From contig NZ_CANSMR010000021.1 in assembly GCF_947648125.1 (NCBI RefSeq), positions 62,001-126,000 on the forward strand: a stretch of 64,000 bases of DNA. Reading direction: 5' to 3'. This document shows positions 9,744-31,983 of this stretch, piece after piece. The translations under genes were made by a program, and so were the position numbers. The notes below the pieces were generated by a model. It did no database searches. It had not been told where the DNA came from and saw only the letters and a program-made list of their open reading frames with translations. Every line of letters starts with the position of its first letter. Position 1 is the first letter of the stretch. The stretch is from an uncultured Bradyrhizobium sp. GTDB taxonomy: Bacteria; Pseudomonadota; Alphaproteobacteria; Rhizobiales; Xanthobacteraceae.

Positions 9744-10370
9744 TCAAAACCGCCCCGCCATCTCCGCGAGCCGGCGGTGCGCGGCTTCGCGGGCCGTGCG
9801 GATCGGCTCCGCAGGCCCGGTGGTCGGGCCGATCGGCACGAAGCGCACGTCGCAGATGCCGATGAAGCGCAGCGCTTCGCGCAGATAGGGCGTTGCCATG
9901 TCGATGCGGCTGCGGTTCATGCTGGTGATGAAGTCGCTGCCGCTGGCGATGATCACGACCGTCGGGCGGTCCTTGAGCAACGGCAGGTAACCTAACGCCG
10001 GATCGAAGCGGAAGGTCAGGCCGGGCTGGATGATGACGTCGAGCCACTGCTTGAGCTTGTAGGGGATGGAAAAATTCCACATTGGCGTCGAGATCAGCAC
10101 GCGATCGGCCAGCGACAGCCGCAGCGCCAGGCGCTCGGCCACCGCGAAGGCATCTTGCTGAGAATTGGTGAAGCTCTTGCCGCCGATTCGGGCGTATTTG
10201 GCCTCGAGCAGATAGCCCTCGAACTCCGGCAACGGCTCGCGCCAGAGGTTCATCGCGTCGATCTCCCAATCCGGCCGCACCTCCCGGAAGCGATCGAGAA
10301 AGACGTGCGCGCCGGCCGCCGATTCCGAATCGGAGCGGGGAGAGCAGGCGAGATGCAGCAGCTTCGGCAC
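9744..10370 (-). CDS. FMN-dependent NAD(P)H oxidoreductase (AzoR/flavodoxin-like fold)
   Basis: A 208-residue flavoprotein of the NADH:quinone/azoreductase family. The N-terminal flavin phosphate loop (LACSPRSDSESAAG), the conserved STPMWNFSIPYKLKQWLD motif and the ASGSDF segment are all visible. GTG at 10370 is the start, preceded by GGAGG with 5-base spacing. It is the last gene of the long minus-strand cluster, 9 bases after the SMP-30/isochorismatase fusion. It could supply reduced flavin or reduce a quinone or azo intermediate; the substrate is not visible. Confidence 0.85.
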   Translation of the reverse strand: MPKLLHLACSPRSDSESAAGAHVFLDRFREVRPDWEIDAMNLWREPLPEFEGYLLEAKYARIGGKSFTNSQQDAFAVAERLALRLSLADRVLISTPMWNFSIPYKLKQWLDVIIQPGLTFRFDPALGYLPLLKDRPTVVIIASGSDFITSMNRSRIDMATPYLREALRFIGICDVRFVPIGPTTGPAEPIRTAREAAHRRLAEMAGRF

Positions 10371-10379
10371 TGCACCTCC

Positions 10380-11951
10380 TCAGCCAAGCGCCTTGATGAC
10401 GGTGTCGGCATTGGTCACGACGGAGACGTTCTGCAGCGCGAAATTGATCGCGGCGTTGTGCCAATCGGCATTCATGGTCGAGCAGCAATCCTCCGGCACG
10501 ATCATGAAATAGCCCTTGTCGGCGCCGGTGCGCGCGGTGTGCTCGACCGACATGTTGGTCCAGGCCCCGGTGTTGATGATCATGTCGCGGCCGGTGGCCT
10601 TCAGGATGGTCTCGAGCCGCGTGCCCTCCCAGGCGCTCATCCGCATCTTCTCCACCACGAAATCGCCCGGACGCGGCTCGAGCCCGGAGACCGGCGCCGC
10701 GCCCCAGCTGCCACGCACCATCGCCTTGCTGTCGACCAGCCCCTCGAACAGCGGCGCGTTCAACGTGACACCGGGCGCGCCCGGCTCGACCACGAACCAG
10801 ACGTGGATGATGGCGACGCCGCGCGCCCGCGCAGCCTCGGCGACACGGCGGACATTCTCGACGACATGCTGCTGGCGCGCATGGGCCGGTGCACCGGACT
10901 CGGCGAATGCGCCGCCCTCCATGATGACGTCGTTCTGCAAGTCCTGGATGATCATTGCGCAACGTTGCGGATCGATCTGCATCTCGCCGGCGGTCAGGTT
11001 CGGCGCAGGTGTAGACGATGGGGCGCTCGCGCCGCCGCGCTTGCCGCTCATATAGGGCTCATTGCGCGGCCCGACCTTGGTCGGGATCGCATAGACCGAA
11101 TGGGTCGCGGTCAGATAGAGCGTGCGGAAATCGGCACCGCCCCAGGCGAGGTTGGCGACGAGCTCGGGCAGGCGGACCTTGCCGAGTAGATTACCGTCTG
11201 GCGAATAGACCCAGACGCCGCCGGGCGCGGTGACCCAGACATTGCCGCGCTGGTCGCACTTCATGCCGTCGGGTAGGCCGGGCTCGAGCTCGGAGCGGAT
11301 GCCGGAGGCGAACACGCGCGGATTACCGAGCGAGCCGTCGGCGGCGACGTCGAAGGCGCGGATCAGCGCCTGCACGGTGTCGTTGACATAGAGGATACGC
11401 TCGTCGGGCGAGAAGCATAGCCCGTTCGGCTGCTCGAACAGATAACGGTCGACCAGCAGTTTCGGGGCGCCGCCTCCGGGCGGCACGCGGTAGACGCCCT
11501 GGAAGCCGAGCTGGCGCGGCCGCTCGACGCCATAGACCGGCATCCGGCCGTACCATGGGTCGGAGAAATAGATCGCACCGGAGGAATGCACGCAGACGTC
11601 GTTCGGACTGTTGAGCTCCTGGTTCTCGTAATGCGAGGCTAGCACCTCGCGCCGCCCGTCGGGCCGCTCGCGGATCAGCGAGGAGGTCGCGTGTTCGCAG
11701 ACGATCAGATTGAGGTCGGCATCATAGGTCATGCCGTTGCACTTGTTCGACGGACGCTTGACCTCGACCACGCCGCGCCGCGGGTCCCAGCGCCGGCGCA
11801 CATCGCCCGGCATGTCGGAGAACAGCAGGAAGTGATCGATCGGGTGCCAGATCGGTCCTTCCGTGAAATCGAAGCCCGTTCCGACCTGGCCAACCGGTGC
11901 ATACGGATCGATCAGGTCTTCGAACTCCGCGCGCAGCGTGACATGCGTCAT
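10380..11951 (-). CDS. SMP-30/gluconolactonase-isochorismatase fusion hydrolase
   Basis: A 523-residue two-domain protein. Residues 1 to about 305 form an SMP-30/gluconolactonase beta-propeller (FTEGPIWHP, NSPNDVCVHSSG, YFSDPWYG, LPDGMKCDQRGN). A Pro/Ala/Ser linker follows, and residues about 330-523 form an isochorismatase-like cysteine hydrolase domain. There the Asp of IIQDLQND and the Lys of VEKMRMSAW are kept, but the nucleophile position reads TNMSVEHTA, with Ser where cysteine hydrolases have Cys. So the lactonase half looks intact and the amidase half may be altered or non-catalytic. It sits 18 bases after the metallo-hydrolase. Ring-lactone and amide opening in one polypeptide is the inferred role. 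Confidence 0.88.
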   Translation of the reverse strand: MTHVTLRAEFEDLIDPYAPVGQVGTGFDFTEGPIWHPIDHFLLFSDMPGDVRRRWDPRRGVVEVKRPSNKCNGMTYDADLNLIVCEHATSSLIRERPDGRREVLASHYENQELNSPNDVCVHSSGAIYFSDPWYGRMPVYGVERPRQLGFQGVYRVPPGGGAPKLLVDRYLFEQPNGLCFSPDERILYVNDTVQALIRAFDVAADGSLGNPRVFASGIRSELEPGLPDGMKCDQRGNVWVTAPGGVWVYSPDGNLLGKVRLPELVANLAWGGADFRTLYLTATHSVYAIPTKVGPRNEPYMSGKRGGASAPSSTPAPNLTAGEMQIDPQRCAMIIQDLQNDVIMEGGAFAESGAPAHARQQHVVENVRRVAEAARARGVAIIHVWFVVEPGAPGVTLNAPLFEGLVDSKAMVRGSWGAAPVSGLEPRPGDFVVEKMRMSAWEGTRLETILKATGRDMIINTGAWTNMSVEHTARTGADKGYFMIVPEDCCSTMNADWHNAAINFALQNVSVVTNADTVIKALG

Positions 11952-11969: not shown

Positions 11970-12818
11970 TTATGCCGGGAACCAGCTGCGTTGCGGCAGG
12001 CTTTGCACGACGGGCCCGGGCACCTGGTCGTGCAGGCGGCCGACCACCATGCCGCCCTCGATCTTCGCCGGGCGATCGTGCACCGGCAGCAGATAGCGCG
12101 AGCTCGACAGCAGCTTCTTGATCGCGGCCTTCTCGGCGCGCTTGCTGGTGCCGTGGTTGCCGGTGGTGCGCGGCTCGGCGTCCTGGATCTCGTTGAAGGG
12201 TGTCACGATCTGGTCGTTGAAATCATAGATCACGTCGCCGCAGATCGTGGCGATGCCGTCGGCGGTATGGACATGGACGTTCATCGAGCCTTCGGTATGG
12301 GCGTTGGCGGCATCGCAATAGACGCCCGGCATCAGCTCGACCGGACCGGAGATCTCGAGGTCGAGGAACCGCAGCGCGCTCTTGGTGTGCAGGCGGTCGA
12401 TCAGGTGCTTGATGTCGGGTGCGGGATATTGCGGGTGCATCAGGCCGGAGACGGAATATTCCAGCTCCTTGCGGTTCACTACGACAGTCGTGTTCATCGG
12501 GAACAGATCGTCCTTGCCGGCATGGTCGATGTGCAGATGGGTGTGGCAGACGAAACGGACGTCGCCCATCCGCACGCCGTGTCGGGCGAGCTGGTTCTCG
12601 ATCATGTTCTCGTGGAACTGGAGGCCGCGCATGCCGAGCGTCTCCATGATCTGGTTGGATCGGTAGCCGGTATCGACCAGCACGGGGTAGGGGCCGCCGA
12701 GGATCAGAAAGCCGAGCGTCAGCACGCGGCGGGTGCGGCCGCAATTGTGCCCGAGCACGAGAAAGCTCGATTCCAGCTCGATATCGCCATAGTCCAGAAT
12801 CTTGATCTCCAACGGCAT
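11970..12818 (-). CDS. Metallo-beta-lactamase-fold hydrolase (lactonase-like)
   Basis: A 282-residue MBL-fold protein. The zinc motif HTHLHIDHAG (HxHxDH) is intact, with further ligands likely in NAHTEGSMNVHVH, ICGDVIYD and LLPVHDRP. Overall layout resembles N-acyl homoserine lactonases and related lactone/thioester hydrolases. The start at 12818 (MPLEIKILD) is chosen because GGAGGG lies just upstream; an in-frame ATG five codons earlier overlaps that site. No signal peptide. It is in the middle of a catabolic gene run, so a lactone or ester intermediate is a more likely substrate than a quorum signal. Confidence 0.85.
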   Translation of the reverse strand: MPLEIKILDYGDIELESSFLVLGHNCGRTRRVLTLGFLILGGPYPVLVDTGYRSNQIMETLGMRGLQFHENMIENQLARHGVRMGDVRFVCHTHLHIDHAGKDDLFPMNTTVVVNRKELEYSVSGLMHPQYPAPDIKHLIDRLHTKSALRFLDLEISGPVELMPGVYCDAANAHTEGSMNVHVHTADGIATICGDVIYDFNDQIVTPFNEIQDAEPRTTGNHGTSKRAEKAAIKKLLSSSRYLLPVHDRPAKIEGGMVVGRLHDQVPGPVVQSLPQRSWFPA

Positions 12819-12869
12819 CGCTCGCCCTCCCAATTCATGTTCGTTGTTGTGTTCGTGTCGGCGGCGCCC

Positions 12870-13760
12870 CTATGGCCCCAGCCGATAGACCCGCGCCGCC
12901 GTCGAGCTGAAGACCGCCTCGCGCTGCTCGCGGCTGAGCCGCTCGGCGGCCGCCTTGAAGGCGTCGATGAGATCGCGGTAGCTGGTCCACAGCTTCTCGA
13001 TCGGAAAGTTCGAGCCGAACAGGCAGCGGTCCGCGCCGAAGATCGCGACCGTGTCGATCACGACGCCGGCGATATGCGCGGCATCGTTGCGGTGGATGAA
13101 GGTGCCGAGCCCGGACAGCTTGGACACGACGTTGGGGCACTGCGCGAGCTGCGCCATGCCGGCGCGCCAGGCAGCCCGGCCCTGCGGTGACAGATCCTCC
13201 GGCATCCCGGCATGTTGCAGGATGAACGTCACGCCGGGGCAGGCTGCGGCGAGGCCAGCGGCATCGGCCATCTGCGGCGCGAACACCTGCAGGTCAAAAC
13301 TCCAGCCATAGTCGGCGAGGTGGCCGACATTGCGCCGGATCACGGGATCGGTGCAAAGGTCCGGACGGGCCGCGAAGCGATAGAGCGGGTTTTCGTGCCA
13401 GTGCAACTGCATGCGCACGCCGCGTATCAGCGGATAACGTTTCAACCGATCGAGCTGCGGGCGAACGTCGTCGACGGAGAAATCGGCATAGGCGACGAGC
13501 GCGTGCGGCCAGCCGTGCTGATCGGCGGTCTGCTGTACCCAGGCCGCCTCGTCCTCGAACTGGCCGTTCGGCCAGTTGGTCTGGACATAGACCGAGCGGG
13601 TGACGCCGGTGCCCTTGAGGTCGTCGAGATACTCCTGGATCGGATAATCCCGGCGGATCGGCTCGTAGGGGCCGAAGATGCGCGGCTGCATCGGGCCGGA
13701 CAGCCAGGCGAGATCGGCCTGACGCCAGATGTGATGATGTCCGTCGACAATGCCGGTCAC
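12870..13760 (-). CDS. Amidohydrolase (COG3618, lactonase type)
   Basis: A 296-residue metal-dependent hydrolase with HHH at residues 8-10 (IVDGHHHIW), a central RGVRMQLHWHEN segment, TFILQHAGMPEDL and C-terminal LFGSNFPIEKLW. These match the 2-pyrone-4,6-dicarboxylate lactonase / L-fuconolactonase group. The start is GTG within a GTGA that overlaps the stop of the CoxE-like gene. It is paralogous to the protein at 1458-2312 but sits in an unrelated context, so its substrate is probably the product of the upstream molybdenum hydroxylase pathway. Confidence 0.85.
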   Translation of the reverse strand: MTGIVDGHHHIWRQADLAWLSGPMQPRIFGPYEPIRRDYPIQEYLDDLKGTGVTRSVYVQTNWPNGQFEDEAAWVQQTADQHGWPHALVAYADFSVDDVRPQLDRLKRYPLIRGVRMQLHWHENPLYRFAARPDLCTDPVIRRNVGHLADYGWSFDLQVFAPQMADAAGLAAACPGVTFILQHAGMPEDLSPQGRAAWRAGMAQLAQCPNVVSKLSGLGTFIHRNDAAHIAGVVIDTVAIFGADRCLFGSNFPIEKLWTSYRDLIDAFKAAAERLSREQREAVFSSTAARVYRLGP

Positions 13761-14875
13761 GCAGCTCTCCTTGTTGCAAGCGACAGCAGGTGCGCAACGA
13801 CCGCCGCGCTCGATCCGCCGTCCACGAGATCATCGACAAAGCGCTGGATCGCGATCAGCGCCTCGGTTTGCGGCTTGAAGCCGGGCGAGGTTGCGAGCGG
13901 CGTCAGCCAGCTCACGCGCCAGGCCCGGCGCGACAGCTTTGCAACTGCATCGCGGAGCGCCGCCGGATCGCCGCGCTCGAGGCCGTCAGAGACGATCACG
14001 ACCGCGGCGCCGCGGGCATATCCGCCGAACCGGGGCACGGCGAGGAAGGCCTGCAGCGCATCGCCGATGCGGGTGCCGCCGTCCCAATCGCTGACCAGGA
14101 AGGAAGCCGCGTTCAGCGCCTGCTCGCGGCGCTTCAGCCGCAGCGCTGACGTGACGCGGGTCAGCCTTGTGCCGAAGGTGAAGACCTCGACGTTGCCGGC
14201 CGCCTGCACTAGCACGTGCGCGAGCCGCATGTTCTCCTCGGTGCGCGCCTTCATCGAGCCGGAGACGTCGATCAGGAACAAGATTTTCCGCGGGCGCTGG
14301 CGGCGGCGCATCCGGCCGAGCCGCAGCACCTCGCCGTCATTGCGCACGCTGTCACGTAGCGTGCGGCGCAGATCGGCGAATGGGCCGCTCCTCGCGCGCC
14401 GTCGCCGGTGGCCGCGCCGCCGCGGCAGCCGTTTTGCCGCCTCGCGTGACAGCCGGCGCAGCGGATCGCTGGTTGCAGTCTGGGCAAAGCGGCGCTCGAC
14501 CAGTGCTTCGGCGCGTGCCGCGGCGAGGCCGGATTCATTAGCCTCGTCGGCGAGCGGCGGCTCGTCCTCGCCGCGGCCTTCCTCCTGCAGGCGGACGGTC
14601 TCCTCGTCCTCGCCCTCGGCCTGCTCGATCGCCTCAGCGCCGCGGAAATGGATGTCGAACAGCCGGTCATACGTCGCGCGGCGCTCCGGCGGCGGCGCCA
14701 GCGTGGCAAGCCCGGCCCGGCGGATGTGCTCGAGACTCCTGGGCCCGAGAAGCTCGATCGCGGCGAGGAAGCTCGTCGTTTGCTCCGGCGCGACCAGGAA
14801 GCCGTTGGCGCGCAGCAGCGCGACAAAGGAGACGAAGATCTGCGCGGCGCGCGGCAGCTTGAGATCGTCGCTCAC
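13757..14875 (-). CDS. CoxE-like von Willebrand factor A domain protein
   Basis: A 372-residue cytoplasmic protein. The N-terminal half is helical, followed by acidic (about 90-115) and Arg-rich (about 150-170) segments. The C-terminal half is a VWA domain with the metal-ion-dependent adhesion motif DVSGSMKART and downstream VIVSDGLERGD. CoxE proteins accompany CoxD ATPases and are linked to maturation of the metal site in CO dehydrogenase and other molybdenum hydroxylases. The GTG start overlaps the CoxD-like stop (GTGA), and its own stop overlaps the amidohydrolase start, so three genes are translationally coupled. Confidence 0.9.
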   Translation of the reverse strand: MSDDLKLPRAAQIFVSFVALLRANGFLVAPEQTTSFLAAIELLGPRSLEHIRRAGLATLAPPPERRATYDRLFDIHFRGAEAIEQAEGEDEETVRLQEEGRGEDEPPLADEANESGLAAARAEALVERRFAQTATSDPLRRLSREAAKRLPRRRGHRRRRARSGPFADLRRTLRDSVRNDGEVLRLGRMRRRQRPRKILFLIDVSGSMKARTEENMRLAHVLVQAAGNVEVFTFGTRLTRVTSALRLKRREQALNAASFLVSDWDGGTRIGDALQAFLAVPRFGGYARGAAVVIVSDGLERGDPAALRDAVAKLSRRAWRVSWLTPLATSPGFKPQTEALIAIQRFVDDLVDGGSSAAVVAHLLSLATRRAA

Positions 14876-15753
14876 GCGGCTGCCTCCGCGATGATCGCAT
14901 CGAGCCGGGGTGAAATGAAGTGCAGGTCCTCCTCGTCCTTCAGCGCGACGCCGATCGAGCGCTTGAAGGCATCAGGCCAGCGTGCGCCGCCCTTGTTGAG
15001 CAGGGTCGCGGCCTCCGCCCAGTCGACCGCTTCGGCAATGCCCGGCGCCTTGCTCAGCGGCTCGCGGCGCAGCCGGCCCACGGCCGCGACCACGGCGCGG
15101 GCAGTGGCCTCGGCAACGCTGGAGGCCCGCATCATCACGATGCGCGCCTCACGCTCGGCATTCGGATAGTCGATCCAGTGATAGACGCAGCGCCGCCGCA
15201 GTGCCTCGTGCAGGTCGCGCGTCCGGTTCGAGGTCAGCACCACCACGGGATGCTCGGTGGCGCGCAGGGTGCCGCGCTCCGGGATCGAGATCTGGAAGTC
15301 GGAGAGGAACTCGAGCAGGAAGGCCTCGAACTCCTGGTCGGCGCGATCGATTTCGTCGATCAGAAGAACGGTCGCATCCGGCGCGCGCAACGCGGCCAGC
15401 ATCGGGCGCTCGATCAGGAACGACTCGCCGTAGATGTCGATGCTCTCTTCGCCGGCCTGCCGGATCGCAAGCATCTGGCGCGGATAGTTCCATTCGTAGA
15501 GCGCCGCGGCGGCGTCGATGCCCTCGTAGCATTGCAGGCGGATCAGCCTGCGGCCAAGCACGGCGGCGATCGCTTTTGCGGCTTCGGTCTTGCCTACCCC
15601 CGGCGCGCCCTCCAGCAGCAGCGGCTTGCCGAGCGCGAGCGAGAGATAGGAGGCGGTCGCAATGCCGTCATCGGCAAGGTAATAGGCCGCGCGCAGCGCC
15701 TTCTCCAGCGCCTCGGGGCTGTCGATGCCGACGATGTTGCTGCGGACCGGCAT
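14872..15753 (-). CDS. CoxD-like MoxR-family AAA+ ATPase
   Basis: A 293-residue AAA+ ATPase. Walker A (EGAPGVGKTE), Walker B (VLLIDEIDRAD), sensor 1 (VVVLTSNRTRDL) and an arginine-finger region (EALRRRCVYHW) are all present. CoxD in Oligotropha is a membrane-associated AAA+ chaperone needed to assemble the Mo/Cu site of CO dehydrogenase. MoxR ATPases generally work with a VWA partner, here the CoxE-like protein immediately downstream. It follows the C-terminal piece of the split molybdenum subunit by 9 bases. Likely role: insertion or sulfuration of the cofactor of that enzyme. Confidence 0.92.
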   Translation of the reverse strand: MPVRSNIVGIDSPEALEKALRAAYYLADDGIATASYLSLALGKPLLLEGAPGVGKTEAAKAIAAVLGRRLIRLQCYEGIDAAAALYEWNYPRQMLAIRQAGEESIDIYGESFLIERPMLAALRAPDATVLLIDEIDRADQEFEAFLLEFLSDFQISIPERGTLRATEHPVVVLTSNRTRDLHEALRRRCVYHWIDYPNAEREARIVMMRASSVAEATARAVVAAVGRLRREPLSKAPGIAEAVDWAEAATLLNKGGARWPDAFKRSIGVALKDEEDLHFISPRLDAIIAEAAA

Positions 15754-15762
15754 GGAGCGATC

Positions 15763-16785
15763 TCAGCGCCGCGGCTGTGGCCGCGCGCCGCCCTGCGCCC
15801 GGATCGCGCGGAGCACCTTCTCCGGCGTGATCGGCAGGTCGTCGATCCGGACGCCGACGGCATTGAAGATCGCGTTGGCAACGGCGGGCAGCACCGGATT
15901 GGCGCACATCTCGCCGGGTCCCTTGGCGCCGAACGGGCCGTCGGGTGCCGGGCGTTCCAGCACCGCAATGTCGTGCGGGCAAATGTCGCCCGGCCCCGGC
16001 ATCAGGTATTCGACGAAATCGCGCGGGCCATGCACCGGCTCCGGATAATAGGGCTCCGGCGTTTCGTAGAGCGCATGGCTGACGCCCATCCAGGCGCCGC
16101 CGACCAGCTGCTGCTCGACCAGCCGCGGATTGAGCGCGCGGCCGAGCTCATAGGCGGAATCCATCCGGATCATGTCGACCTCGCCGGTCTCGTCGTCGAC
16201 TTCGACCTCGGCGACGAGGCAGGCATGCGCATAGCAGGTCGCCGGCGACATCTCGCCGGTTTCCGGGTCGACGTCGGAGAGCGGCACCAGGAAGATGCCG
16301 CGGCCGGAGATCGTCTTGCCCTGCTTGAACTGCGCGGCGATCGCGACGTCCTTGGTCGAAATCGAGCGGTGCGGCGCGCCCTTGACGTGGATATTGCCGC
16401 GGCCGTCGGTCTCGAGATCGGCGGCATTCACCTCGAGCTCTTCGGCAGCCGCCTCCATCATCACGCCGCGGGCCTCCCGTGCCGCAGCCATCACGGCGTT
16501 GCCGACGCGATGGGTGCCGCGCGAGGCGAACGAGCCCATGCAGTGCGGGCCGGTGTCGGAATCCGCGGTGTCGACATAGACGTCCTCGACCGGCACGCCG
16601 AGCGTCTCGGCACAGATCTGCCGCGTCACCGACTTCATGCCCTGGCCGAGATCGATCGAGGACAGTGCGACGGTGAACTTGCCGCTGGGGTTGGAATGCA
16701 CCAGCGCCTGGCTCGGATCGCCGCCGAGATTCATGCCGATGGGGTAATTGACCGACGCGATGCCGCGTCCGCGATGCCGGGTCAT
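15763..16785 (-). CDS. Molybdenum hydroxylase large subunit, C-terminal piece
   Basis: This 340-residue ORF is the C-terminal molybdopterin-binding half (MoCoBD_2) of a xanthine dehydrogenase/CoxL family large subunit. It begins MTRHRGRGIASVNYPIGMN, exactly where intact homologues continue from the first half, and retains the active-site Glu292 in FGAKGPGEMC. It is in a different frame from the N-terminal piece, whose stop lies two bases before this ATG. A strong AGGAGG site sits inside the tail of the upstream ORF at correct spacing, so it can be translated as a separate subunit. Either a natural gene fission or a frameshift plus insertion. Confidence 0.85.
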   Translation of the reverse strand: MTRHRGRGIASVNYPIGMNLGGDPSQALVHSNPSGKFTVALSSIDLGQGMKSVTRQICAETLGVPVEDVYVDTADSDTGPHCMGSFASRGTHRVGNAVMAAAREARGVMMEAAAEELEVNAADLETDGRGNIHVKGAPHRSISTKDVAIAAQFKQGKTISGRGIFLVPLSDVDPETGEMSPATCYAHACLVAEVEVDDETGEVDMIRMDSAYELGRALNPRLVEQQLVGGAWMGVSHALYETPEPYYPEPVHGPRDFVEYLMPGPGDICPHDIAVLERPAPDGPFGAKGPGEMCANPVLPAVANAIFNAVGVRIDDLPITPEKVLRAIRAQGGARPQPRR

Positions 16786-16787: not shown

Positions 16788-18383
16788 TCAGCGCCTCCTG
16801 GTGCCGAAAACGGAAGAGAAGCGGGTGGCGCCATGCGACGGCGCACTCGGCCGCGGTGGCGGAGGCGATGGTGGCGTTGAAGAGGGCGGCGGCGGTGGCG
16901 GCGGCTCGCGGGTCGCGGCCGGCGCTCGGTCATACGTCGTGCGCTGCTGGATCGGTGCAGCCGCCGGTGCATGCGATTCCCGCGGTGTCAGCGTCACAGC
17001 GGCACGGATCCCGCCGCCATCCTTGCGTGACGACATCCGCTTGAACTCCTCGCGGATCGGCCATTTCGCCTTCTCCGCGGCGACCTGCACGCATTCGATC
17101 AGCGCGGTGTTCTTGGCCTCGCGCCGATGTGCCTTCATGTCGCCGTCGCGATACGCATTGAGGATTCGGAACTCCATCGGGTCCATGCCGACCAGATGGG
17201 CGAGCTTGTCCATCTGGCATTCGATCGCGAAGTCCATCGCCGTGACGCCGAAGCCGCGCATCGCGGTCGCGGGCGTCCGGTTGGTGAAGACGCAGTAGAC
17301 GTCGCCATGGACGTTCGGGATCGTGTAAGGGCCGGGCAGATGGGCGGCGCATTTCACCGCCGCATAGCTCGAAAGCCGCGTATAGGCGCCGCTGTCGAAA
17401 TAGGCGCGCACCTTGCGGGCGACCACGCGGCCGTCGCGCATCACGCCATCCTTGATGTAGATGCGCTCGGCGCCGCGCGGCGGGCCGTACTGCATCTCCT
17501 CTTCGCGCCCGAACACGTAGCGCACCGGGCGCCCGGTCAGCATCGCGCCGAGGATGCAGAGCGGCTCGGTCAGGGTATCGACCTTACCGCCGAACCCGCC
17601 GCCGACGGTGCCGCCAATGAAATGGAAGGTGTTGGAGGGCACGTCGAGGATCTTGGCGCAGGTGTCGACCGAGAAGAACAGCGCCTGCGTCGAGGTATAG
17701 ACGATGTAGCGGCCGTTGGTGTCGGGCGCTGCGATCGAACCGTTGGTCTCGGTCGGCGCGTGCTCGATCGGCGACATCTGGTAGCGCTGCTCCAGCACAT
17801 GGTCGGCCGTGGCAAGCGCCCGATCGGCGTCGCCGAAGCGCAGCTGCTGGCGATCATAGGTCTCGTGATAGGTGAAGGTGTTCTTGGGGTACACTTCGTT
17901 GACCACGGGCGCGCCGGGCTTCAGCGCGTCCTCGACGTCGAACACCGCCGGCAGCGGTTCATAGTCGATCTTGACCTTGGCGATCGCCTCAAAGGCCTCG
18001 CGCGGGCTGTCGGCGATGATGGCGACGATCGGCTCGCCCTTGTAGCGCACCTTGTCGACCGCGAGCGACGGCTCGTCGTCCTTGCCGAAATTGATCAGGC
18101 TGAGCAGCGTGTTCAAATTGCGCGGCACGTCGGAGGCGCGGATCACGCGCCGCACCCCCTGCGACCGCTCGGCCTCCGAAGTGTCGATGCGCCGCAGTCT
18201 TGCATGCGAATGGGAGCTGCGGACCACCTTCAAGTGCAGCATGCCCTGCAGCTTGTGGTCGTCGAAATAGGGCGAGGTGCCGGTGACATGGCCGAGCATG
18301 TCCTGGCGCTGCGTGCCCTTGCCGATTTCTTTTAAGTTGTCGTCGCGCTCGTCGGCGAAGAGGTCCTTGCGCAATTCCAGCAT
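16788..18383 (-). CDS. Molybdenum hydroxylase large subunit, N-terminal piece with Pro-rich tail
   Basis: A 531-residue ORF carrying the aldehyde-oxidase a/b hammerhead domain and the first molybdopterin-binding domain of the xanthine dehydrogenase/CoxL family. Visible motifs are GGTVGGGFGGK and AMRGFG (374-379). The true CO-dehydrogenase signature AYXCSFR is absent, so the substrate is probably organic. After about residue 460 similarity stops and a foreign-looking tail follows, with Pro tracts (seven Pro in a row, then STPPSPPPP) and a basic end. Intact homologues have no such tail. It lies 12 bases after the FeS subunit gene. Together with the next ORF it should form the catalytic subunit. 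Confidence 0.85.
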   Translation of the reverse strand: MLELRKDLFADERDDNLKEIGKGTQRQDMLGHVTGTSPYFDDHKLQGMLHLKVVRSSHSHARLRRIDTSEAERSQGVRRVIRASDVPRNLNTLLSLINFGKDDEPSLAVDKVRYKGEPIVAIIADSPREAFEAIAKVKIDYEPLPAVFDVEDALKPGAPVVNEVYPKNTFTYHETYDRQQLRFGDADRALATADHVLEQRYQMSPIEHAPTETNGSIAAPDTNGRYIVYTSTQALFFSVDTCAKILDVPSNTFHFIGGTVGGGFGGKVDTLTEPLCILGAMLTGRPVRYVFGREEEMQYGPPRGAERIYIKDGVMRDGRVVARKVRAYFDSGAYTRLSSYAAVKCAAHLPGPYTIPNVHGDVYCVFTNRTPATAMRGFGVTAMDFAIECQMDKLAHLVGMDPMEFRILNAYRDGDMKAHRREAKNTALIECVQVAAEKAKWPIREEFKRMSSRKDGGGIRAAVTLTPRESHAPAAAPIQQRTTYDRAPAATREPPPPPPPSSTPPSPPPPRPSAPSHGATRFSSVFGTRRR

Positions 18384-24578: not shown

Positions 24579-26789
24579 TCACCTCGCCACTCTCCGCCTG
24601 CCACCGGCGCGTCCGAGCAGCGGACGGAACGCGCTGACGATGGCGGCGGTGAACTCGGGATCGTTGATGTTGCGCTTGATGCGGATAATCTGCCGGTTGC
24701 CGGTCTGGCGCACGGTGCGCTCCAGCGCGCGGAACAGTGCCGCGTCGGCGTCGGGGTCCCAGAACGGCTGGCCGGGCGCATCGAGCGCGGAGACGCCGCC
24801 TTCGGCCAGGAAGAAGCGCACCGGCCCATCCATCTGGTTGAGGCGTTCGCCGATCCAGCGGCCGATGCGCTCGTTCTCTTCCGGCGTGGTCCGCATCAAG
24901 GTGACCTGCGGATTGTGGACGTGGAGTTTGCGCTGCCGGTAGCGCTCCGGAACGGTGTCGGGCGCGCCGAAGTTCACCATATCCAGCGCACCGACCGAGC
25001 CGACATAGGGCACGTGGCTGCGGATGATGGCGCCAAAGCGGTCGTCGGTCGCCGGGAACACGCCGCCCATCAGCAGGTCGCAGACCTCGGTCGTGGTGAG
25101 ATCGATGACGCCGGCGAGCTGGCCGGACTCGACCAGCTTCTCCATCGAGCGGCCGCCGACGCCGGTGGCGTGGAACACGAGGCACTCGAAATCCTCGCGA
25201 AGGTCCGCTGCGATCTTCTGCACCGCCGGCGTGGTGACGCCGAACATGGTGATGCCGACGGCGGGAAGATGAGCGCCCGTATCACGCGGTTTGCCAGCCT
25301 GTTCGTCGAGCCGCGCCTTGACCATGCCGACCAGGGCGTGGGCACCGTTGCCGAGCACCGTGCGCGAGATCGAATTGAGGCCCTGCACGTCGGTGACCGA
25401 ATACATCATGGTGATGTCGGCGGGGCCGACATAGGGACCGACGTCGCCGGAGGCGACCGAGGAGATGATAAGTTTCGGCACGCCGACCGGGAGCGTGCGC
25501 ATTCCGGGCGCGACCAGCGACGCGCCGCCCGAGCCGCCGGCCGAGATGATGCCGGCGACATTGCCTTGGCGGCGCAGCCATCGCTCGAATGCCTCCGCCA
25601 TCGCGGTCACCGAGGCGCCGCGATCGGTGCCGAACACGCCGGAGCCGCCGCGGCCGTGGTTCAGTGCGATTTCCTGCGCGGTGACGTCGCAGCTCGTCGC
25701 CTTGCCGCTGGTCGAAACGTCGACCAGCCGGGTGCGCAGGCCGCTGCCGGCGACGATGTCGCGGATGAAGCGCAGCTCCGCGCCCTTGGTGTCGAGCGTG
25801 CCGACGACCAGCACGACGGGAGGTCCCGATGTCCTCGACGTTGCCGGTTCGCGCCGCGTGCGCGTTGTCTCCTCGAGCCGCGTGACGGCGGCGGACTGCG
25901 TCCGTGCGGCGGCCTCGATGCGGGCGATCGGCACCGGCTGCGACCAGCGCGTCGGCAGCACGGGATTGGAGACGTAGATGCGAGCCGGACCCTTGCGTTC
26001 CGGCTGCGGCGTGCCGGGCGCCTCAGCTTTCGCCGGCGCCGTCTCGGCATCGATCTCATCAGCGCCGTGGGTGCCGACGCCGAGCAGCCGCTGCTGCAAC
26101 TCGCGGTCGGTCGCGAGGCGCGCCGAGTCGATGATGCGGTTGATGCGGCCATTGACCATGATGGCGACGTTGCGCGACACCGCCGTCGCCACGCCGATGT
26201 TCTGCTCGATGACGAGGACGGACATGTCGCCTTCGTCACCGAGGCGCAGCAGCATCTCCTCGACCTGCGCGACGATCACAGGCGCAAGGCCCTCGGTCGG
26301 CTCGTCCATGATCAGGAGCTGCGGATTGGTCAGCAGTGCGCGCGAGATCGCGAGCATCTGCTGCTCACCGCCGGAGAGCTGGTTGCCGCCGTTGTTCTTG
26401 CGTTCGGCGAGTCGCGGGAAGGTGTCGTAGATGCGTTCGATGGTCCAGGCGCCGCGGCGCAGGCCGCCGGCGAGCGCAAGGTGCTCGTCGACCGTCAGCG
26501 AGCGCCACAGGCGCCGGCCCTGCGGCACATAGCCGACGCCGAGGCGGGCGATCCGCGCCGGATTCAGCCGCGTGACCTCCTCGCCGCGAATCCGGATCGA
26601 GCCACTGCTGGCGCGGACCAGGCCCATGATGGCCTTGCACAGTGTGGTCTTGCCCATGCCGTTGCGGCCGACCACCGAGAACACGCCGGTATCGAGCGTT
26701 AGATCAACGCCCTGCAGCGCATGCGAATGGCCGTAATAGACGTCGAGGCCTTTGACTTCGAGTGCGGGCGCGGCACGGCGGTCATTCAT
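24579..26789 (-). CDS. Fusion: branched-chain-type ABC ATPase (LivF) + Tm-1-like UPF0261 domain
   Basis: A 736-residue two-domain protein. Residues 1 to about 240 are a complete LivF-type ATPase: Walker A GRNGMGKT (41-48), signature LSGGEQQ (138-144), Walker B LLIMDEP (158-164) and the H-loop region replaced by VIEQNIG as usual for LivF. A linker of about 80 residues rich in Ala, Pro and Arg follows. Residues about 323-736 are a UPF0261/Tm-1-like domain ([49 protein letters not shown]-type motif). The frame is open throughout and overlaps LivG by 8 bases, so it is a true fusion. It may couple transport to a metabolic or ligand-binding function. Confidence 0.92.
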
Positions 26790-27564
26790 GGCCGCCTCCG
26801 AGATAAAGCTCCTGCACCTCGGGATCTGACTCGATCTCGCGCGGCAGGCCTTCCTTGAAGATGCGACCGTTGTGCATCATCGTCACGCTCTCGACGACGC
26901 GCAGCGCGACGTCCATGTCGTGCTCGATGATGATGTAGCCGATATGCGCGGGTAGCGAGGTCAGGATCTCGATCAGCTCGCGCCGCTCGGTCGGCGACAG
27001 TCCCGCCGCCGGCTCGTCGAACAGGATGAAGCGCGGCGCGCCGGCAAGCGCCAGTGCGATCTCGAGCTGGCGCTGCTGGCCATGCGCGAGCTCGGCGACG
27101 CGCTGGTCCTTGACGCCGGCAAGGTGCACGGCCTGCACCAGCGTCTCCGTCGCGTGCATCAGCGCATCGTTCTGCCCCGGGCGAAGCAACGAGAACCGGC
27201 CGCGCGAGACGCCGCGGCAGGCGAGATAGACGTTGTCCTGCACGGTGAGGCCGGGGAACAGCGCCGAGATCTGGTAGGTCCGGCGCAAGCCCCGGCGGAT
27301 GCGCTCATAGGGCGGGAATTGGGTGATGTCCTCGCCGAAGAAGCGGATCGTGCCGGAGGAGGGTGGGAAGTCGCCGGTGATGCAGTTGAACAGCGTGGTC
27401 TTGCCGGCGCCGTTCGAGCCCAGCACCGCGCGGCGCTCGCCCGGCCGCACGGTGATGGTGACGTCGGTCAGCGCCGCCAGCGCACCGAACAGCCGGGTCA
27501 CGCCGCGCAGCTCCAGCGCCGCACCGGCGCCGACCACGGACAGTCGCTGCGCGACGCTATCCAT
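26782..27564 (-). CDS. Branched-chain-type ABC transporter ATPase (LivG-like)
   Basis: A 260-residue ATPase of the hydrophobic-amino-acid-uptake transporter family. It has Walker [10 protein letters not shown], Walker [13 protein letters not shown], and [15 protein letters not shown] with the H-loop His. The signature reads [10 protein letters not shown] instead of the usual LSYGDQR, a mild departure. The ATG at 27564 has GGAGG five bases upstream; a GTG four codons earlier is less likely. It overlaps the end of the permease gene by 8 bases and the next ATPase gene by 8 bases. Confidence 0.92.
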
Positions 27565-28642
27565 GGCGGCCTCCACCCGGACGTTGCCTCGAGGTTGCGC
27601 TGCGGCGCCGCCAGCGTTCCCAGAGGCCGATCACGCCGTCCGACGACCAGAACACGATGGCGAGGAAGCCGAGCCCGATCAACAGCCGGAAGCGGTTGCC
27701 GTCGAGCCCGAACTTGATCAGCACGTCGAGCGCGAAGGTGCGCAGCAGGACGAAGATGAGTGCGCCGATGAACGGGCCGATCGGCCGCGTGATGCCGCCG
27801 ACCACGGCGATGATCAGGACGTCGATGCAGGCGCCGACGCTGACCGAGCCGGGCGAGATCTGCCGGTAGTTCCAGACCTGCAGCACGCCGCCGAGCGCCG
27901 CGATGAAGGCCGCGAAGGCGTAGGCCGCGATGCGGTGCGCGTTCGGATTGAAGCCGAGCGCCGCCATGCGGCGGGGGTTGTCGCGGACGCCCTGCAGCGC
28001 GAGGCCGAACGGCGCGCGTGAGACATACTGGACGGCGAAGTAGCAGGTCGCGGCGACGCCGAGCGTCACATAGTAGAAGGCGATGTCGGCGCGCCAGTCG
28101 ACACCCCAGAAATGCGGCGTCGCGACGGTGTTGATGCCGGTATGGCCGTTGAAGATCGCCCAGTTCTGGTTGGTGAAGTAGTAGAACGCCGCGCCGATCG
28201 CGAGCGTGATCATGATGGTGTAGATGCCCTCGGTGCGCACCGCCAGCGCGCCGCCGAGCGTGCCGAACAGCGTCGCGAGCGCCAGCGCCATCGGGGTTGC
28301 GAGCCACCACGGCCAGCCGAGGCTGATATTGGCGTTGCCGCTCATGCCGAACACCGCGACCATGTAGCCGGCGAAGCCCGCGATGGTGAGCTGCATCAGG
28401 CTCACCATGCCGCCGTAGCCGGCGAGGAACATCAGGCTGAGCGCGATGACGCCGAGGATCAGCGTGGTGGCGAAGATCTCGATCAGGAAGAAGCCGTTGG
28501 CGATCAGCGGCATGATCACGAGGATCAGCGCGACCAGCCAGGCCGCCGGGTTCTGGAATTCCGGCCAGGCGCGGATCAAGGCACGGCGGGTCGCGTTGGC
28601 GGATGGGTCGGGGCGGAACTGGGTGCTCTGGAGCAACGACAT
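27557..28642 (-). CDS. Branched-chain-type ABC transporter permease (LivM-like)
   Basis: A 361-residue inner-membrane permease with eight or more hydrophobic segments. LivM landmarks include LSLMFLAGYGGMVSLMQLTIAGFAGY, the EAA-like loop ALQGVRDNPRRMAALGFNP and IAVVGGITRPIGPFIGA. The N-terminus is a short cytoplasmic stretch. The start lies one base before the stop of the LivH-like gene and the end overlaps LivG, showing tight coupling. Substrate cannot be read from the permease. Confidence 0.93.
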   Translation of the reverse strand: MSLLQSTQFRPDPSANATRRALIRAWPEFQNPAAWLVALILVIMPLIANGFFLIEIFATTLILGVIALSLMFLAGYGGMVSLMQLTIAGFAGYMVAVFGMSGNANISLGWPWWLATPMALALATLFGTLGGALAVRTEGIYTIMITLAIGAAFYYFTNQNWAIFNGHTGINTVATPHFWGVDWRADIAFYYVTLGVAATCYFAVQYVSRAPFGLALQGVRDNPRRMAALGFNPNAHRIAAYAFAAFIAALGGVLQVWNYRQISPGSVSVGACIDVLIIAVVGGITRPIGPFIGALIFVLLRTFALDVLIKFGLDGNRFRLLIGLGFLAIVFWSSDGVIGLWERWRRRSATSRQRPGGGRHG

Positions 28643-28643
28643 C

Positions 28644-29654
28644 TCATCGCCTCGCGAGCAGGCCCTGCGGCCGCAGCGCCAGCACCACGACCATGATCAG
28701 GAAGGTGACGACGATGGCGTAGGTCGGGATGTAGACCGAGCCGAGCTGCTCGGCGAGCCCGATGATGACGGCGCCGAGCGCAGCCCCCGGGATCGAGCCC
28801 ATGCCCCCGACGATCACGACGACGAGCGAGGCGAGCAGGAAGCGGGTGTCCTCGCCCGGCGACAGCGACTGGAAGGTGCCGCCGACGACGCCGGCGATCC
28901 CGGCGAGCCCGGCGCCGAGCGCGAACACCAGCACGAACACGAGCTGGATCCGCACCCCGGTCGCAGCCAGGATGTCGCGATCGTCGACCCCGGCGCGCAC
29001 GATCATGCCGATCCGCGTCCGGTTGAGCGCCAGCCACATCGCGATCCCGATCACGACGGAGGCGGCGAAGATCACCAGCCGCACCAGCGGATATTGCAGA
29101 TAGACCGGCTCGCCCGATGATTTGACTGCTGTCAACAGCGGCAGCTGCACCGGGCCGATCAGCCAGCTCGGGGTCTGGACCTGGTAGAAGTCGCCGCCGA
29201 ACACCCAGAGCATCAGATCGGCGAACACGATCGAGAGCCCGATCGTGACCATGGTCTGCCTGAGGTCCTGGCCCTCCATGCGGCGGAACACGGCGAGCTG
29301 CAGGATCACCCCGACCAGCGCCGCCGCGACGAAGGCGACGATGAAGGAGAGGATCCACGAGCCGGTCCAGGTGCTGATCGCGTAGCCGATATAGCCACCG
29401 AACAGATAGAGCGAGCCGTGCGCGAGGTTGACGTTGCGCATCAGGCCGAAGATCAACGTGAAGCCGCTGGCCACCAGGAAATACAGCCCGCCGAGCGTGA
29501 TGCCGTTCAAGACGGCGTTGAGGAACACGCGCTTGCGGCCGATCGCGGCTTCCAGCCCCGGCGGCCAGATCGCGAACACCAGCCACAGCAGCACCGCGAC
29601 CGCGATGATCACGATCAGCGCCCAGGCCGGATGGCGTTCGATGAACCTGGCCAT
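28644..29654 (-). CDS. Branched-chain-type ABC transporter permease (LivH-like)
   Basis: A 336-residue inner-membrane permease. LivH features are NAVLNGITLGGLYFLVASGFTLIFGLMRNVNLAHGSLY and the EAA-like loop GVDDRDILAATGVRIQ, followed by VVIVGGMGSIPGAALGA. An extra N-terminal membrane segment (about 11-31) precedes the usual core. Residues about 160-185 form an insertion with an extracytoplasmic loop. It heads the permease-ATPase block, 121 bases after the AraC gene, and a promoter in that gap is possible. Confidence 0.93.
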   Translation of the reverse strand: MARFIERHPAWALIVIIAVAVLLWLVFAIWPPGLEAAIGRKRVFLNAVLNGITLGGLYFLVASGFTLIFGLMRNVNLAHGSLYLFGGYIGYAISTWTGSWILSFIVAFVAAALVGVILQLAVFRRMEGQDLRQTMVTIGLSIVFADLMLWVFGGDFYQVQTPSWLIGPVQLPLLTAVKSSGEPVYLQYPLVRLVIFAASVVIGIAMWLALNRTRIGMIVRAGVDDRDILAATGVRIQLVFVLVFALGAGLAGIAGVVGGTFQSLSPGEDTRFLLASLVVVIVGGMGSIPGAALGAVIIGLAEQLGSVYIPTYAIVVTFLIMVVVLALRPQGLLARR

Positions 29655-29775: not shown

Positions 29776-30594
29776 TCACGGCCGCAACACCTTGGCGGCG
29801 CGGCGATAGTCGGTCGGGGCCATGCCGACATTGGCAGCGAAGAAGCGGGTGAAGCCGCTCTGCGAGGAGAAGCCGAGATCGAAGCCGATATCGGCGATCG
29901 GCGCTTCGGTCGCGACCAGCGCATCCAGCGCCTGCTCCATGATCAGCGTGTTCATGTAGAGGTGAGGGGTGACGCCGGTTTGCGTCCGGAACAGCCGGTA
30001 GAAATGAGGCCGCGACAGGCCGGCTTCGCGTGCGATCGCATCGAGCTCGATCTCGGCGCCGGGGCTTTCCGACATCAGCCTGATCGATTTGCGCACCCTG
30101 AAATCGGTTACGGCGGCGGCGGCGCGCGCGTCCTGCGCGGCCTGCCAGCTCTCCTCGTAGCAGGAATCGATCAGCTGCCTGAGCTCGCAGTCGAGGCTGC
30201 GCAGCGACGGCGCGCCGCACACCAGTGCTGCGGTGCGGCGGATCAGCCGGTCGAGCGCCTCGGTGCGCGGAAAGAAGGTGCGGCCGAACCGCAAGCCCTG
30301 CGCGCTCGCGGGCTGCGGCGCGAACCACTCGGCATTGACATAGAGCACGAAGAAGATCGCGCCGTGGTCCATGTCGGTCGGCAGAAAATTGTGCGGTTCC
30401 CACGGGTTGACCGCGACCACGGTGTCGTCCTTGAGCAGCAGGCGCTGCTCCGAGACGTCGATCTGCGCCGGCGTTCCGCCGACATGAAAGATCAGGTGCC
30501 CTTCGCGGTGCGCATGCACGTTGAAGGGACGGTTCAACTGATAGACCGTCGCGCGACCGAACCGGCCGTGGAAGACGGCAAGCGCCCTGCTCAT
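29776..30594 (-). CDS. AraC-family transcriptional regulator
   Basis: A 272-residue regulator. The N-terminal cupin-like ligand domain (FNVHAHREGHLIFHVGG, VVAVNPWEPHNFLPTD) occupies about 1-160. The C-terminal pair of helix-turn-helix motifs (AIAREAGLSRPHFYRLFRTQTG and IADIGFDLGFSSQSGFTRFFAANVG) occupies about 175-272. It lies between the binding-protein gene and the transporter genes, in the same orientation, and so is the obvious candidate activator of the long catabolic run downstream. Confidence 0.92.
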   Translation of the reverse strand: MSRALAVFHGRFGRATVYQLNRPFNVHAHREGHLIFHVGGTPAQIDVSEQRLLLKDDTVVAVNPWEPHNFLPTDMDHGAIFFVLYVNAEWFAPQPASAQGLRFGRTFFPRTEALDRLIRRTAALVCGAPSLRSLDCELRQLIDSCYEESWQAAQDARAAAAVTDFRVRKSIRLMSESPGAEIELDAIAREAGLSRPHFYRLFRTQTGVTPHLYMNTLIMEQALDALVATEAPIADIGFDLGFSSQSGFTRFFAANVGMAPTDYRRAAKVLRP

Positions 30595-30732
30595 GCCTCC
30601 CCTCCCGCGGGATGTTCTTGTCTTTTCGACAAGCGTTCATCATCCGCCCGCGGAAAGCAAGGGCGAGCAGGGCTCCTCGTGCAACCGCGCGCCTTCGTCA
30701 CGGCTGGCTTGCTCGCACCTGCAACAAATACG

Positions 30733-31983
30733 TCAGTACTTCTTGCACTCCGGGACCGTGCGGCTCGGCAGGCCGATCTTGGCGAAAACCGCCGGATCGT
30801 AGCCCAGCGTCTGGTTGACGTTCGGGATCACCTTCACGACCTTGCTGAACAGCGCGCCCTTGCCGTCATCGACAACCTCGGTGACGAAATTGGTGCCGAT
30901 CGCCTGGCGGTTGGCGTCGAGCTTGATCTTGCCGTTCGGGGCGTCGATCTCGATCTTCGCCAGCGCATCCTTCAGCTTGGCCTGGTTGTTGGAGAGATCG
31001 CCATTGACCTGGCGCAGCGCCAGGATCAGCGCCATGGTCGAGCCGTAGTAATTGGTGGCGAGCAGCGACGGGCTCGGGAAGCGTTTGCTCTCCGGGAACG
31101 AGTCCTGATAGGCCTTCACGAATTTCTGCCAGCCCGGATCCTCCCAGGTATCGGCTTGGCCGCTTGCCGCGATGGTGCCGATCAGCGCGTTCTTGGCGCT
31201 GCCCTTCGACGACAGGATGGTCTGGTCGATCATGATCGAGCCGCCCATCAGATGCGCCTTGCCGCCGGCCTGCTGATACTGGTTGAGGAAGTTGACGGCG
31301 TCGGCGCCGCCGAGGCCGAGATAGATCGCATCGACATCGTCGGGCAGCGCGGCGATCACAGAGGCGAAATCCTTGGTGCCGAGCGGCACCCATTGCCGGT
31401 TGGTGACCTGGCCGCCGGCGCCGCAGAACTCGAGCACGAGCCCGAACACCTGGGTGTAGATGAACGAGTAATCCTCGCCGACGGTCGCGATCTTGCGATA
31501 GCCCTTGGTCTCATAGGCATATTTGCCGAGGCCGACCTGCCACTGCGCGCCGTCCATGTTGTAGCGGAAGAAGTTCGGCGCCGGATCGACATAGGTCGTC
31601 TCCTGCGCGCCGGAGGCGGCGTTGACGAAGGTCAGCTCCGGATGGGTCTTGGCAAAGTTCTTCACCGCGATGCCCTCGTCGCCGGACAGCGGTGACAGCA
31701 GAATCTGCACCTTGTCCTGCTCGATCAGCTTGCGCACCGCGCGCACCGCGGAGTCCGGCGTCGCGTCGGTCGAGGCGACGACGAATTCGAGTTCCTTGTC
31801 GCCGATCTTCTTGCCGAGCACGTTGAGCGCGGTCTGGTGGCCGCGCATGCCATCCTCGCCGAGTACCGTATAGGTGCCCTCGAGCGTCGCGGTGACGCCA
31901 ACCTTGATCTTCTCCTGGGCGAACGCCGTGCCCGAAAGCAACAGGCTGCTCAACGCAATCAGTCCCAAACTGCCTTTCAACAT
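30733..31983 (-). CDS. Periplasmic binding protein of branched-chain-type ABC transporter
   Basis: A 416-residue solute-binding protein (Peripla_BP_6 type I fold). Residues 1-23 are a signal peptide with likely cleavage after SGTAFA. The mature start KIKVGVTATLEGTYTVLGEDGMRG is typical of LivK-like proteins, as are SPLSGDEGIAVKNFAKTHPELTFVNAASG and GEDYSFIYTQ. The start at 31983 is supported by GGGAGGAGAG; a longer open frame lacks signal-peptide features. It is the first gene of the minus-strand run and determines the transporter's specificity. The ligand is unknown. Confidence 0.92.
   Translation of the reverse strand: MLKGSLGLIALSSLLLSGTAFAQEKIKVGVTATLEGTYTVLGEDGMRGHQTALNVLGKKIGDKELEFVVASTDATPDSAVRAVRKLIEQDKVQILLSPLSGDEGIAVKNFAKTHPELTFVNAASGAQETTYVDPAPNFFRYNMDGAQWQVGLGKYAYETKGYRKIATVGEDYSFIYTQVFGLVLEFCGAGGQVTNRQWVPLGTKDFASVIAALPDDVDAIYLGLGGADAVNFLNQYQQAGGKAHLMGGSIMIDQTILSSKGSAKNALIGTIAASGQADTWEDPGWQKFVKAYQDSFPESKRFPSPSLLATNYYGSTMALILALRQVNGDLSNNQAKLKDALAKIEIDAPNGKIKLDANRQAIGTNFVTEVVDDGKGALFSKVVKVIPNVNQTLGYDPAVFAKIGLPSRTVPECKKY

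Follow-up and report, generated by a model that had tools for sequence, protein, structure and literature searches.

A run of 20 minus-strand genes in the 8.57-Mb genome of an uncultured Bradyrhizobium sp. (RefSeq assembly GCF_947648125.1) appears, from its gene content and order, to be a single inducible unit that breaks down one class of small cyclic organic compounds; the probability of this reading is put at roughly 0.6. The run spans positions 31983 to 9744 of the window, meaning the whole 64,000-nt stretch that was analysed (contig NZ_CANSMR010000021.1, positions 62,001 to 126,000). That the genes make up one unit for uptake plus catabolism is likely, and a route centred on a lactone is somewhat less than an even bet. 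The compound is perhaps a lactone or a lactol former, with its opening perhaps organised at the membrane. Searches of an open-access library aimed at the unit turned up no description of it.

In order of transcription, the first half of the run encodes a periplasmic binding protein, an AraC-family regulator, LivH, LivM and LivG importer subunits, a LivF-UPF0261 fusion, a TIM-barrel protein, a flotillin and two SRPBCC proteins. The second half encodes the FAD subunit, the FeS subunit and the N and C parts of the large subunit of a molybdenum (Mo) hydroxylase, a MoxR ATPase, a VWA protein, an amidohydrolase_2, a metallo-beta-lactamase-fold (MBL) protein, an SMP-30/isochorismatase fusion and a flavodoxin_2 protein. 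The first-pass annotation of this DNA, made from the letters alone, had described about 20 minus-strand genes with mostly tight junctions, and the coordinates agree: at 16 of 19 junctions the genes overlap or lie less than 60 bases apart, and the larger gaps are those between binding protein and AraC (138 bases), AraC and LivH (121) and the two SRPBCC genes (215). It did not name the AraC regulator, which follows the binding-protein gene and precedes that of the first permease. A scan of 13700-33000 found one promoter-like site (1.5 expected) and five terminator-like sites (8.8 expected).

Gene order strongly supports one functional unit. Close loci were taken as the best 80 of 400 confirmed in a GTDB scan with the LivF-UPF0261 fusion, and 78 of these 80 are titled Bradyrhizobium; the nearest share 97% identity. 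As far as each sequence extends, all 80 have the series from binding protein to VWA (16 genes) collinear, on a single strand and with no internal gap; 73 contain all 16 (the last one in part), the other seven being short contigs or contig ends. The 3' end of the run, from the C part of the Mo subunit (CoxL_C) through MoxR, VWA, amidohydrolase, MBL and SMP-30/isochorismatase to flavodoxin_2, is complete in each of the 17 genus genomes that were read at this end. The fusion itself is found in 22 of 27 sampled genus genomes, the window's own included: 20 copies are full-length with at least 79% identity, that of G220 has 65%, and that of G212 is in two pieces. The latter (contig C60, 10362-12570) gives two matches that overlap, which would fit a frameshift or a misassembly.

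The same order extends well beyond the genus. At the order level, 99 of 297 genomes have a TIM-barrel match, and the surroundings of the 36 best matches outside the window's own family were classed, with type A denoting loci with the Mo hydroxylase and type B those with the importer/Tm-1/flotillin/SRPBCC core and another oxidoreductase. A script assigned 17 loci to type A, seven to “B or cut,” three to “fusion, cut,” four to “pair only” and five to “other.” Two were then reassigned by eye. G564, which breaks off at its contig end within the FAD subunit gene, became type A; G319, whose 5.9-kb contig carries fusion, TIM barrel and flotillin, was counted as cut. The final classes are 18 type A, six type B, four cut inside the core, four with UPF0261 and TIM barrel only and four with a TIM barrel alone. 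All 14 type-A loci of other families that are readable to the end carry the whole series of 17 genes, LivH through SMP-30/isochorismatase, in the same order, and nine further loci that reach the Mo genes, from the window's own family outside the genus plus G220, share it as well. Of 349 genomes sampled across the phylum, 33 have a match; six beyond the order have E < 1e-100, of which four were opened (not G615 and G879). G883 is type A with all 17 genes, G860 type A without MBL, G595 type B and G775 pair only. Plasmid-borne copies are found in Shinella zoogloeoides Teo12 (type A, without MBL; no substrate was found for it in the open-access literature), Yoonia sp. SS1-5 (type A, all genes by tblastn) and Variovorax paradoxus VAI-C (type B). 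Across the flanks compared, no gene family is common to more than six of 21 regions. The divergence of individual genes correlates with that of the TIM barrel (r from 0.60 to 0.97, uncorrected for shared ancestry and with only nine sequences for two of the genes). Synteny across genomes had been named in the first-pass annotation as a check on its single unit; the order is conserved, and the scatter of homologues without synteny that it gave as the contrary outcome is not the pattern found.

The run opens with what that annotation called a complete branched-chain-type ABC importer, and Pfam matches account for every part of it. The binding protein (30733..31983; PF13458, 1.5e-48) is of the branched-chain/urea (HAAT) type, and its closest solved structures are 4zpj and 4evq; the solved relatives include what we take to be binders of aromatic compounds. 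Its first ATG is at 31983, and the longest open reading frame (ORF) begins with TTG at 32061. It is followed by the AraC-family regulator (29776..30594; HTH_18, 2.2e-23), which lies between binding protein and LivH in all 21 regions compared, by LivH- and LivM-type permeases (28644..29654 and 27557..28642; PF02653, 6.2e-33 and 1.1e-28) and by a LivG-type ATPase (26782..27576; PF00005, 2.6e-29). As in other HAAT (Liv/Urt) importers there are one binding protein, two BPD_transp_2 permeases and two ATPase domains, but here the second ATPase bears a UPF0261 part, and all subunits are under the NCBIfam urea and leucine equivalog cut-offs. The spacing between binding protein and AraC exceeds 1.2 kb in 14 of 21 regions and the binding-protein gene is inverted in three, so it may be a unit of its own.

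The fusion (24579..26789; PF00005, PF06792 1.5e-58, PF23189 2.1e-91) is a single 736-aa protein joining a LivF-type ATPase to UPF0261, the N-terminal domain of Tm-1. Both UPF0261 domains are over the Pfam cut-off (198 and 305 bits vs. 27), and this part matches the tomato Tm-1 structure 3wry at 1.4e-98. The adjoining TIM-barrel protein (23742..24575; PF09370, 7.4e-131), of the PEP_hydrolase family and the counterpart of the C-terminal part of Tm-1, matches 2p10 (Mll9387) at 1.2e-119. The two make up the UPF0261/TIM-barrel Tm-1 pair named in the first-pass annotation. The Tm-1 family is best known from virus resistance in tomato. In the plant protein UPF0261 is joined to the TIM barrel, whereas in the window it is joined to the importer ATPase, although both domains are present and adjoining. 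An interaction between UPF0261 and TIM-barrel proteins has been proposed from co-evolution analysis (PMC5028733).

The next gene (20822..23716) encodes a flotillin, the SPFH protein that had been read as a membrane scaffold, with both the SPFH domain (PF01145, 7.4e-17) and the flotillin domain (PF15975, 2.2e-37) over cut-off and a long coiled coil; against the NCBIfam FloT equivalog it scores 25 bits, with a cut-off of 700. The coiled coil has an 11-residue-based, chiefly 44-residue periodicity, and its length differs strongly among loci. Eight type-B loci have flotillins of 562-744 aa; in 33 of 35 other loci the length is 864-1166 aa, and the two short ones (152 and 532) may be cut by a contig end. 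SRPBCC1 (20375..20812; PF10604, 4.5e-29) and SRPBCC2 (19716..20159, starting with ATG; PF10604, 7.3e-18) fall in Polyketide_cyc2. They had been called CoxG-like, a label that is not supported in the strict sense: no PF06240 (COXG) match is listed for either at E up to 10, a range in which HMMER filters drop most weak matches. CoxG is said to serve as a quinone carrier in mycobacteria. The CoxG of Oligotropha carboxidovorans is an SRPBCC protein, suggested to recruit its enzyme to the membrane (PMC4240915). A dispersed, partly self-complementary repeat with 45 matches in the genome, itself included, occupies the gap from SRPBCC1 to SRPBCC2 (20160-20374). Across 74 close loci this gap is 84-253 bases in 13 and -2 to 2 in 61.

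The oxidoreductase consists of an FAD subunit (18882..19700; PF00941 5.3e-29, PF03450 1.7e-18), closest to NCBIfam glyceraldehyde dehydrogenase beta but below its cut-off, a [2Fe-2S] subunit (18396..18875; PF01799 5.7e-32, PF00111 1.5e-08) and a Mo subunit encoded in two parts. The N part (16788..18383; PF02738, 1.4e-69) has a proline-rich tail and the C part (15763..16785; PF20256, 4e-59) follows it directly; the best solved matches are the nicotinate dehydrogenase chains 3hrd_A (1.2e-61) and 3hrd_B (5.2e-48), respectively. All 34 panel loci, among them the window and six close loci of Bradyrhizobium, have the split; the two parts are separated by -1 to 3 bases, and the N part is 524-632 aa long. 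A frameshift as the origin of the split was rejected, since all 34 loci share it, with an adjoining or overlapping start, in three different frame relations. Nicotinate dehydrogenase (NdhFSLM) likewise has FAD, FeS and two separate Mo subunits; the window adds MoxR and VWA, importer, flotillin and lactonase-type genes, and the proline-rich tail. Of the positions which we take from xanthine dehydrogenase (bovine numbering), that of Arg880 is kept, in an active-site loop reading TAMRGFG in all panel sequences, that of Glu802 is Val (in GGGFGGKV) and that of Glu1261 is kept. The nicotinate dehydrogenase of Eubacterium barkeri is reported to comprise four gene products, two of them Mo-binding subunits (PMC10331938).

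Downstream are a MoxR/CoxD-type AAA+ ATPase (14872..15753; PF00004, 1e-13), scoring 274 bits against NCBIfam MadB with a cut-off of 475, and a CoxE-type VWA protein (13757..14875; PF05762, 2.8e-47); the NCBIfam names MadB and MadC were not traced in the open-access literature. The presence of these two homologues argues for CoxD/CoxE-like maturation. CoxD of Oligotropha acts in Mo sulfuration (PMC4240915). Relative to the cox cluster of O. carboxidovorans, the window has the same oxidoreductase superfamily and homologues of CoxD (AAA+) and CoxE (VWA), but neither a CoxF match nor the copper loop, a different SRPBCC family, a split Mo subunit and extra hydrolases.

Three of the following genes encode predicted hydrolases. 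The amidohydrolase_2 (12870..13760; PF04909, 2.7e-50) is nearest to NCBIfam L-fucono-1,5-lactonase (113 bits, cut-off 400), the MBL protein (11970..12833; PF00753, 8.1e-10) resembles N-acyl homoserine lactone (AHL) lactonases (AiiA, 51 bits, cut-off 375), and a 523-aa product (10380..11951; PF08450 9.3e-56, PF00857 6.9e-47) joins SMP-30/gluconolactonase to an isochorismatase-like domain. Residues that are presumably catalytic or metal ligands are invariant in all sequences compared, window included: DxHxH of the amidohydrolase (25 of 25), HxHxDH and Asp200..Tyr203 of the MBL protein (25 of 25) and Glu31, Asn117, Asn176 and Asp228 of SMP-30 (27 of 27). The isochorismatase domain is closest to putative isochorismatase, RutB and putative amidases. 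It keeps Asp337 and Lys435, but Ser468 stands at the position of the RutB Cys in 27 of 27 sequences. A canonical RutB-type role was rejected on this loss of the Asp-Lys-Cys triad, and the domain is probably no cysteine amidase. Some isochorismatases also have no Cys, so vinyl ether hydrolysis is one option. The last gene (9744..10370; PF02525, 1.5e-36) encodes a Flavodoxin_2 protein resembling NAD(P)H:quinone and azo-reductases and ends the run in Bradyrhizobium. Present in all 17 genus genomes whose 3' end was read, it has no match in any of the 23 more distant loci that leave 700 bases or more for it, among them G220, a divergent member of the genus. On this distribution the predicted flavin reductase is characteristic of the genus.

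A further clue comes from relatives. Of 21 regions, 11 carry a gene for an iron-dependent alcohol dehydrogenase (Fe-ADH) in the interval from binding protein to AraC (tblastn, >30% identity to the Shinella copy, itself counted), and three more do so by ORF or annotation alone; there is none in seven, the window among them. Two of six cluster copies tested pass the NCBIfam 4-hydroxybutyrate dehydrogenase cut-off of 500 (Shinella 523.7, G331 504.5). Beside it in three regions (G331, G334 and Yoonia) is an aldehyde dehydrogenase gene, below every listed cut-off. The window genome has a stand-alone 4-hydroxybutyrate dehydrogenase homologue over the cut-off (545 bits), and none of the unit's lactonase or aldehyde dehydrogenase homologues are found in the 16 kb around it. 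In blcABC (attKLM) the likeness lies in the AHL-lactonase-type MBL of the window and in the hydroxybutyrate-dehydrogenase-like and aldehyde dehydrogenase genes of some relatives. To our knowledge blcABC has no importer, Mo enzyme, flotillin, SMP-30 or amidohydrolase; conversely, the window run shares only the MBL with it, the hydroxybutyrate and semialdehyde dehydrogenase genes being absent from the run. The blcABC operon is reported to convert butyrolactone to hydroxybutyrate and succinic semialdehyde (PMC5924552). By this analogy, the lactonase folds and the 4-hydroxybutyrate-dehydrogenase-like neighbour would point to an omega-hydroxy acid derived from a lactone as an intermediate.

From the families present, their conserved order and the catalytic residues kept, we infer the following route. 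The compound would enter via the binding protein and the HAAT-type importer, and the ATPase-tethered UPF0261 with its TIM-barrel partner would take it over or alter it on the cytoplasmic side of the membrane. The flotillin could gather importer and enzymes into a membrane patch, and the two SRPBCC proteins may keep a hydrophobic ligand, either the substrate or a quinone, between the membrane and the oxidoreductase. The xanthine-dehydrogenase-superfamily hydroxylase, matured by MoxR and VWA, would oxidise a ring carbon or a lactol to a lactone-type product, to be opened by the three lactonase-type hydrolases and the isochorismatase-type domain. In many relatives the 4-hydroxybutyrate-dehydrogenase-like enzyme, sometimes with the aldehyde dehydrogenase, would turn the resulting omega-hydroxy acid into a dicarboxylate.

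Several observations weigh against this reading in whole or part. Five of the 27 genus genomes have no fusion, so the unit is dispensable. Every hydrolase is far under the NCBIfam equivalog cut-offs of characterised lactonases, which makes “lactonase” a guess at superfamily level. Four of the six Fe-ADH copies tested are also under their cut-off (433, 371, 298 and 86 bits), and a 4-hydroxybutyrate-dehydrogenase-like gene is absent from the window run. No MBL is found in Shinella and G860, and G263 and G157 have no amidohydrolase match. The binding protein, LivG, TIM barrel and FeS subunit of the Yoonia copy are each in two frames without an annotated coding sequence (L134, 9111-10378, 16275-17005, 19176-19981 and 25337-25812), so this copy is damaged or misread. 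At the order level, finally, the TIM barrel occurs alone in four of 36 loci and with UPF0261 only in another four; the pair therefore also works outside the unit.

The first-pass annotation had offered an N-heterocycle or a lactone as substrate. Lactone chemistry is favoured by the three lactonase-type enzymes with their kept residues and by the 4-hydroxybutyrate-dehydrogenase-like neighbour, leaving the N-heterocycle as a rival. Catabolism of a nicotinate-like N-heteroaromatic, in which the split Mo enzyme would hydroxylate beside the ring nitrogen and amidases open the ring, would fit the best solved relatives of both Mo subunits (the 3hrd nicotinate dehydrogenase chains) and the RutB and amidase relatives of the isochorismatase domain. 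It is nevertheless unlikely: the Cys nucleophile is missing from that domain in every sequence, the 20 genes include no monooxygenase, dioxygenase or deaminase family, and the three lactonase-type enzymes go unexplained. Just as unlikely is a pathway for breaking down a lactone, either a gamma-lactone signal or one from plants (AHL, butyrolactone or strigolactone-like), with lactonases acting first and a 4-hydroxybutyrate-type oxidation following as in blcABC. The MBL type, the Fe-ADH of relatives and the reported butyrolactone degradation by blcABC (PMC5924552) suit it, but the low scores to AHL lactonases and the loss of the MBL in two type-A loci do not, and a Mo hydroxylase is not needed. 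Also in its favour is the type-B copy of V. paradoxus VAI-C, a strain known for AHL degradation.

Oxidation of an aldose to an aldonolactone by the Mo enzyme, with the SMP-30 and fuconolactonase-type enzymes opening it, is less probable still. The FAD subunit and the amidohydrolase are nearest to sugar-type families, both under cut-off, and Yoonia has an extra didehydro-deoxy-rhamnonate-hydrolase-like gene (412 bits vs. a cut-off of 500), but this is found in one of 21 regions only, there is no sugar-acid dehydratase among the 20 genes, and the binding protein is of the HAAT type with presumed aromatic binders among its relatives. A carbon monoxide dehydrogenase operon with extra genes is very improbable. 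The enzyme belongs to the Cox/xanthine dehydrogenase superfamily, and homologues of CoxM, CoxS, CoxL, CoxD and CoxE are present, but a CO dehydrogenase type is not supported. The active-site loop of CO dehydrogenase is AYxCSFR or the form II version, as against TAMRGFG in all panel sequences; no CoxF-type match (CoxF being of the XdhC/CoxI type) is among the listed Pfam matches of the run genes, nor is PF06240; and the split large subunit is nearest to nicotinate dehydrogenase. The CO dehydrogenase reading was rejected on the loop and the missing CoxF match. A chance neighbourhood or several unrelated operons, for which the three gaps of more than 100 bases and the inverted binding-protein gene of three regions might be cited, is contradicted by the synteny in 14 of 14 and 80 of 80 loci and has next to no probability.

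The catabolic unit could also be viewed more broadly. Type-B loci keep the importer genes, LivF-UPF0261, TIM barrel, flotillin and SRPBCC1, and in three of three checked by Pfam the SRPBCC2 is fused to a zinc-type/quinone-oxidoreductase domain; the one such fusion checked in NCBIfam is nearest to NADPH:quinone reductase, and the length of the Variovorax SRPBCC2 gene (490 aa) fits. Since the oxidoreductase changes on a fixed importer-UPF0261-TIM-flotillin-SRPBCC core, the core would be a delivery platform. This allows a speculative and on balance doubtful picture of a raft-based uptake-and-oxidation metabolon, in which a fixed platform (UPF0261-tethered importer ATPase, TIM-barrel partner, long flotillin and two SRPBCC ligand carriers) would serve exchangeable oxidoreductases, either the split Mo hydroxylase or a quinone-reductase-like enzyme. 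If so, the original role of the Tm-1 family would be that of a substrate-handling partner of an importer. The genes behind the type-B core of G595 (L131, 9582-13566) may hint at the type-B substrate: they include those for an enol-lactonase-like hydrolase, an amidohydrolase and an aspartate dehydrogenase. The fusion is in most of the sampled genus genomes, and the unit recurs in other families and orders; the retention of some 20 genes together hints at an important class of soil compound, and the roles of UPF0261/Tm-1 and of bacterial flotillins become testable at one tractable locus.

Genes upstream of the binding protein are retained only in some of the closest loci. A short-chain dehydrogenase/reductase gene at 32490-33272 and the upstream regulators were rejected as members for this reason. 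ORFs 32064-32483 and 33377-34300 are without any Pfam match, and homologues of the latter are confined to some of the closest loci.

Outside the unit, eight pair-only loci were opened. An SRPBCC gene is near the pair in three (Azospirillum and Terrarubrum by annotation, G567 by tblastn), and none is seen by annotation or tblastn in the other five (Mesorhizobium pMLa, G511, G577, G337 and G775), so the idea that UPF0261, TIM barrel and SRPBCC make up a minimal module is only a suggestion. Near other UPF0261/TIM-barrel pairs, the order-level TIM-barrel search found open frames of 584-735 aa for long proteins with a divergent TIM barrel (~30-37% identity; L136, 12565-14415, and L137, 8096-9877). 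A sigma-54 regulator is located near the Mesorhizobium pair, and the TIM barrel may double as a sensor domain.

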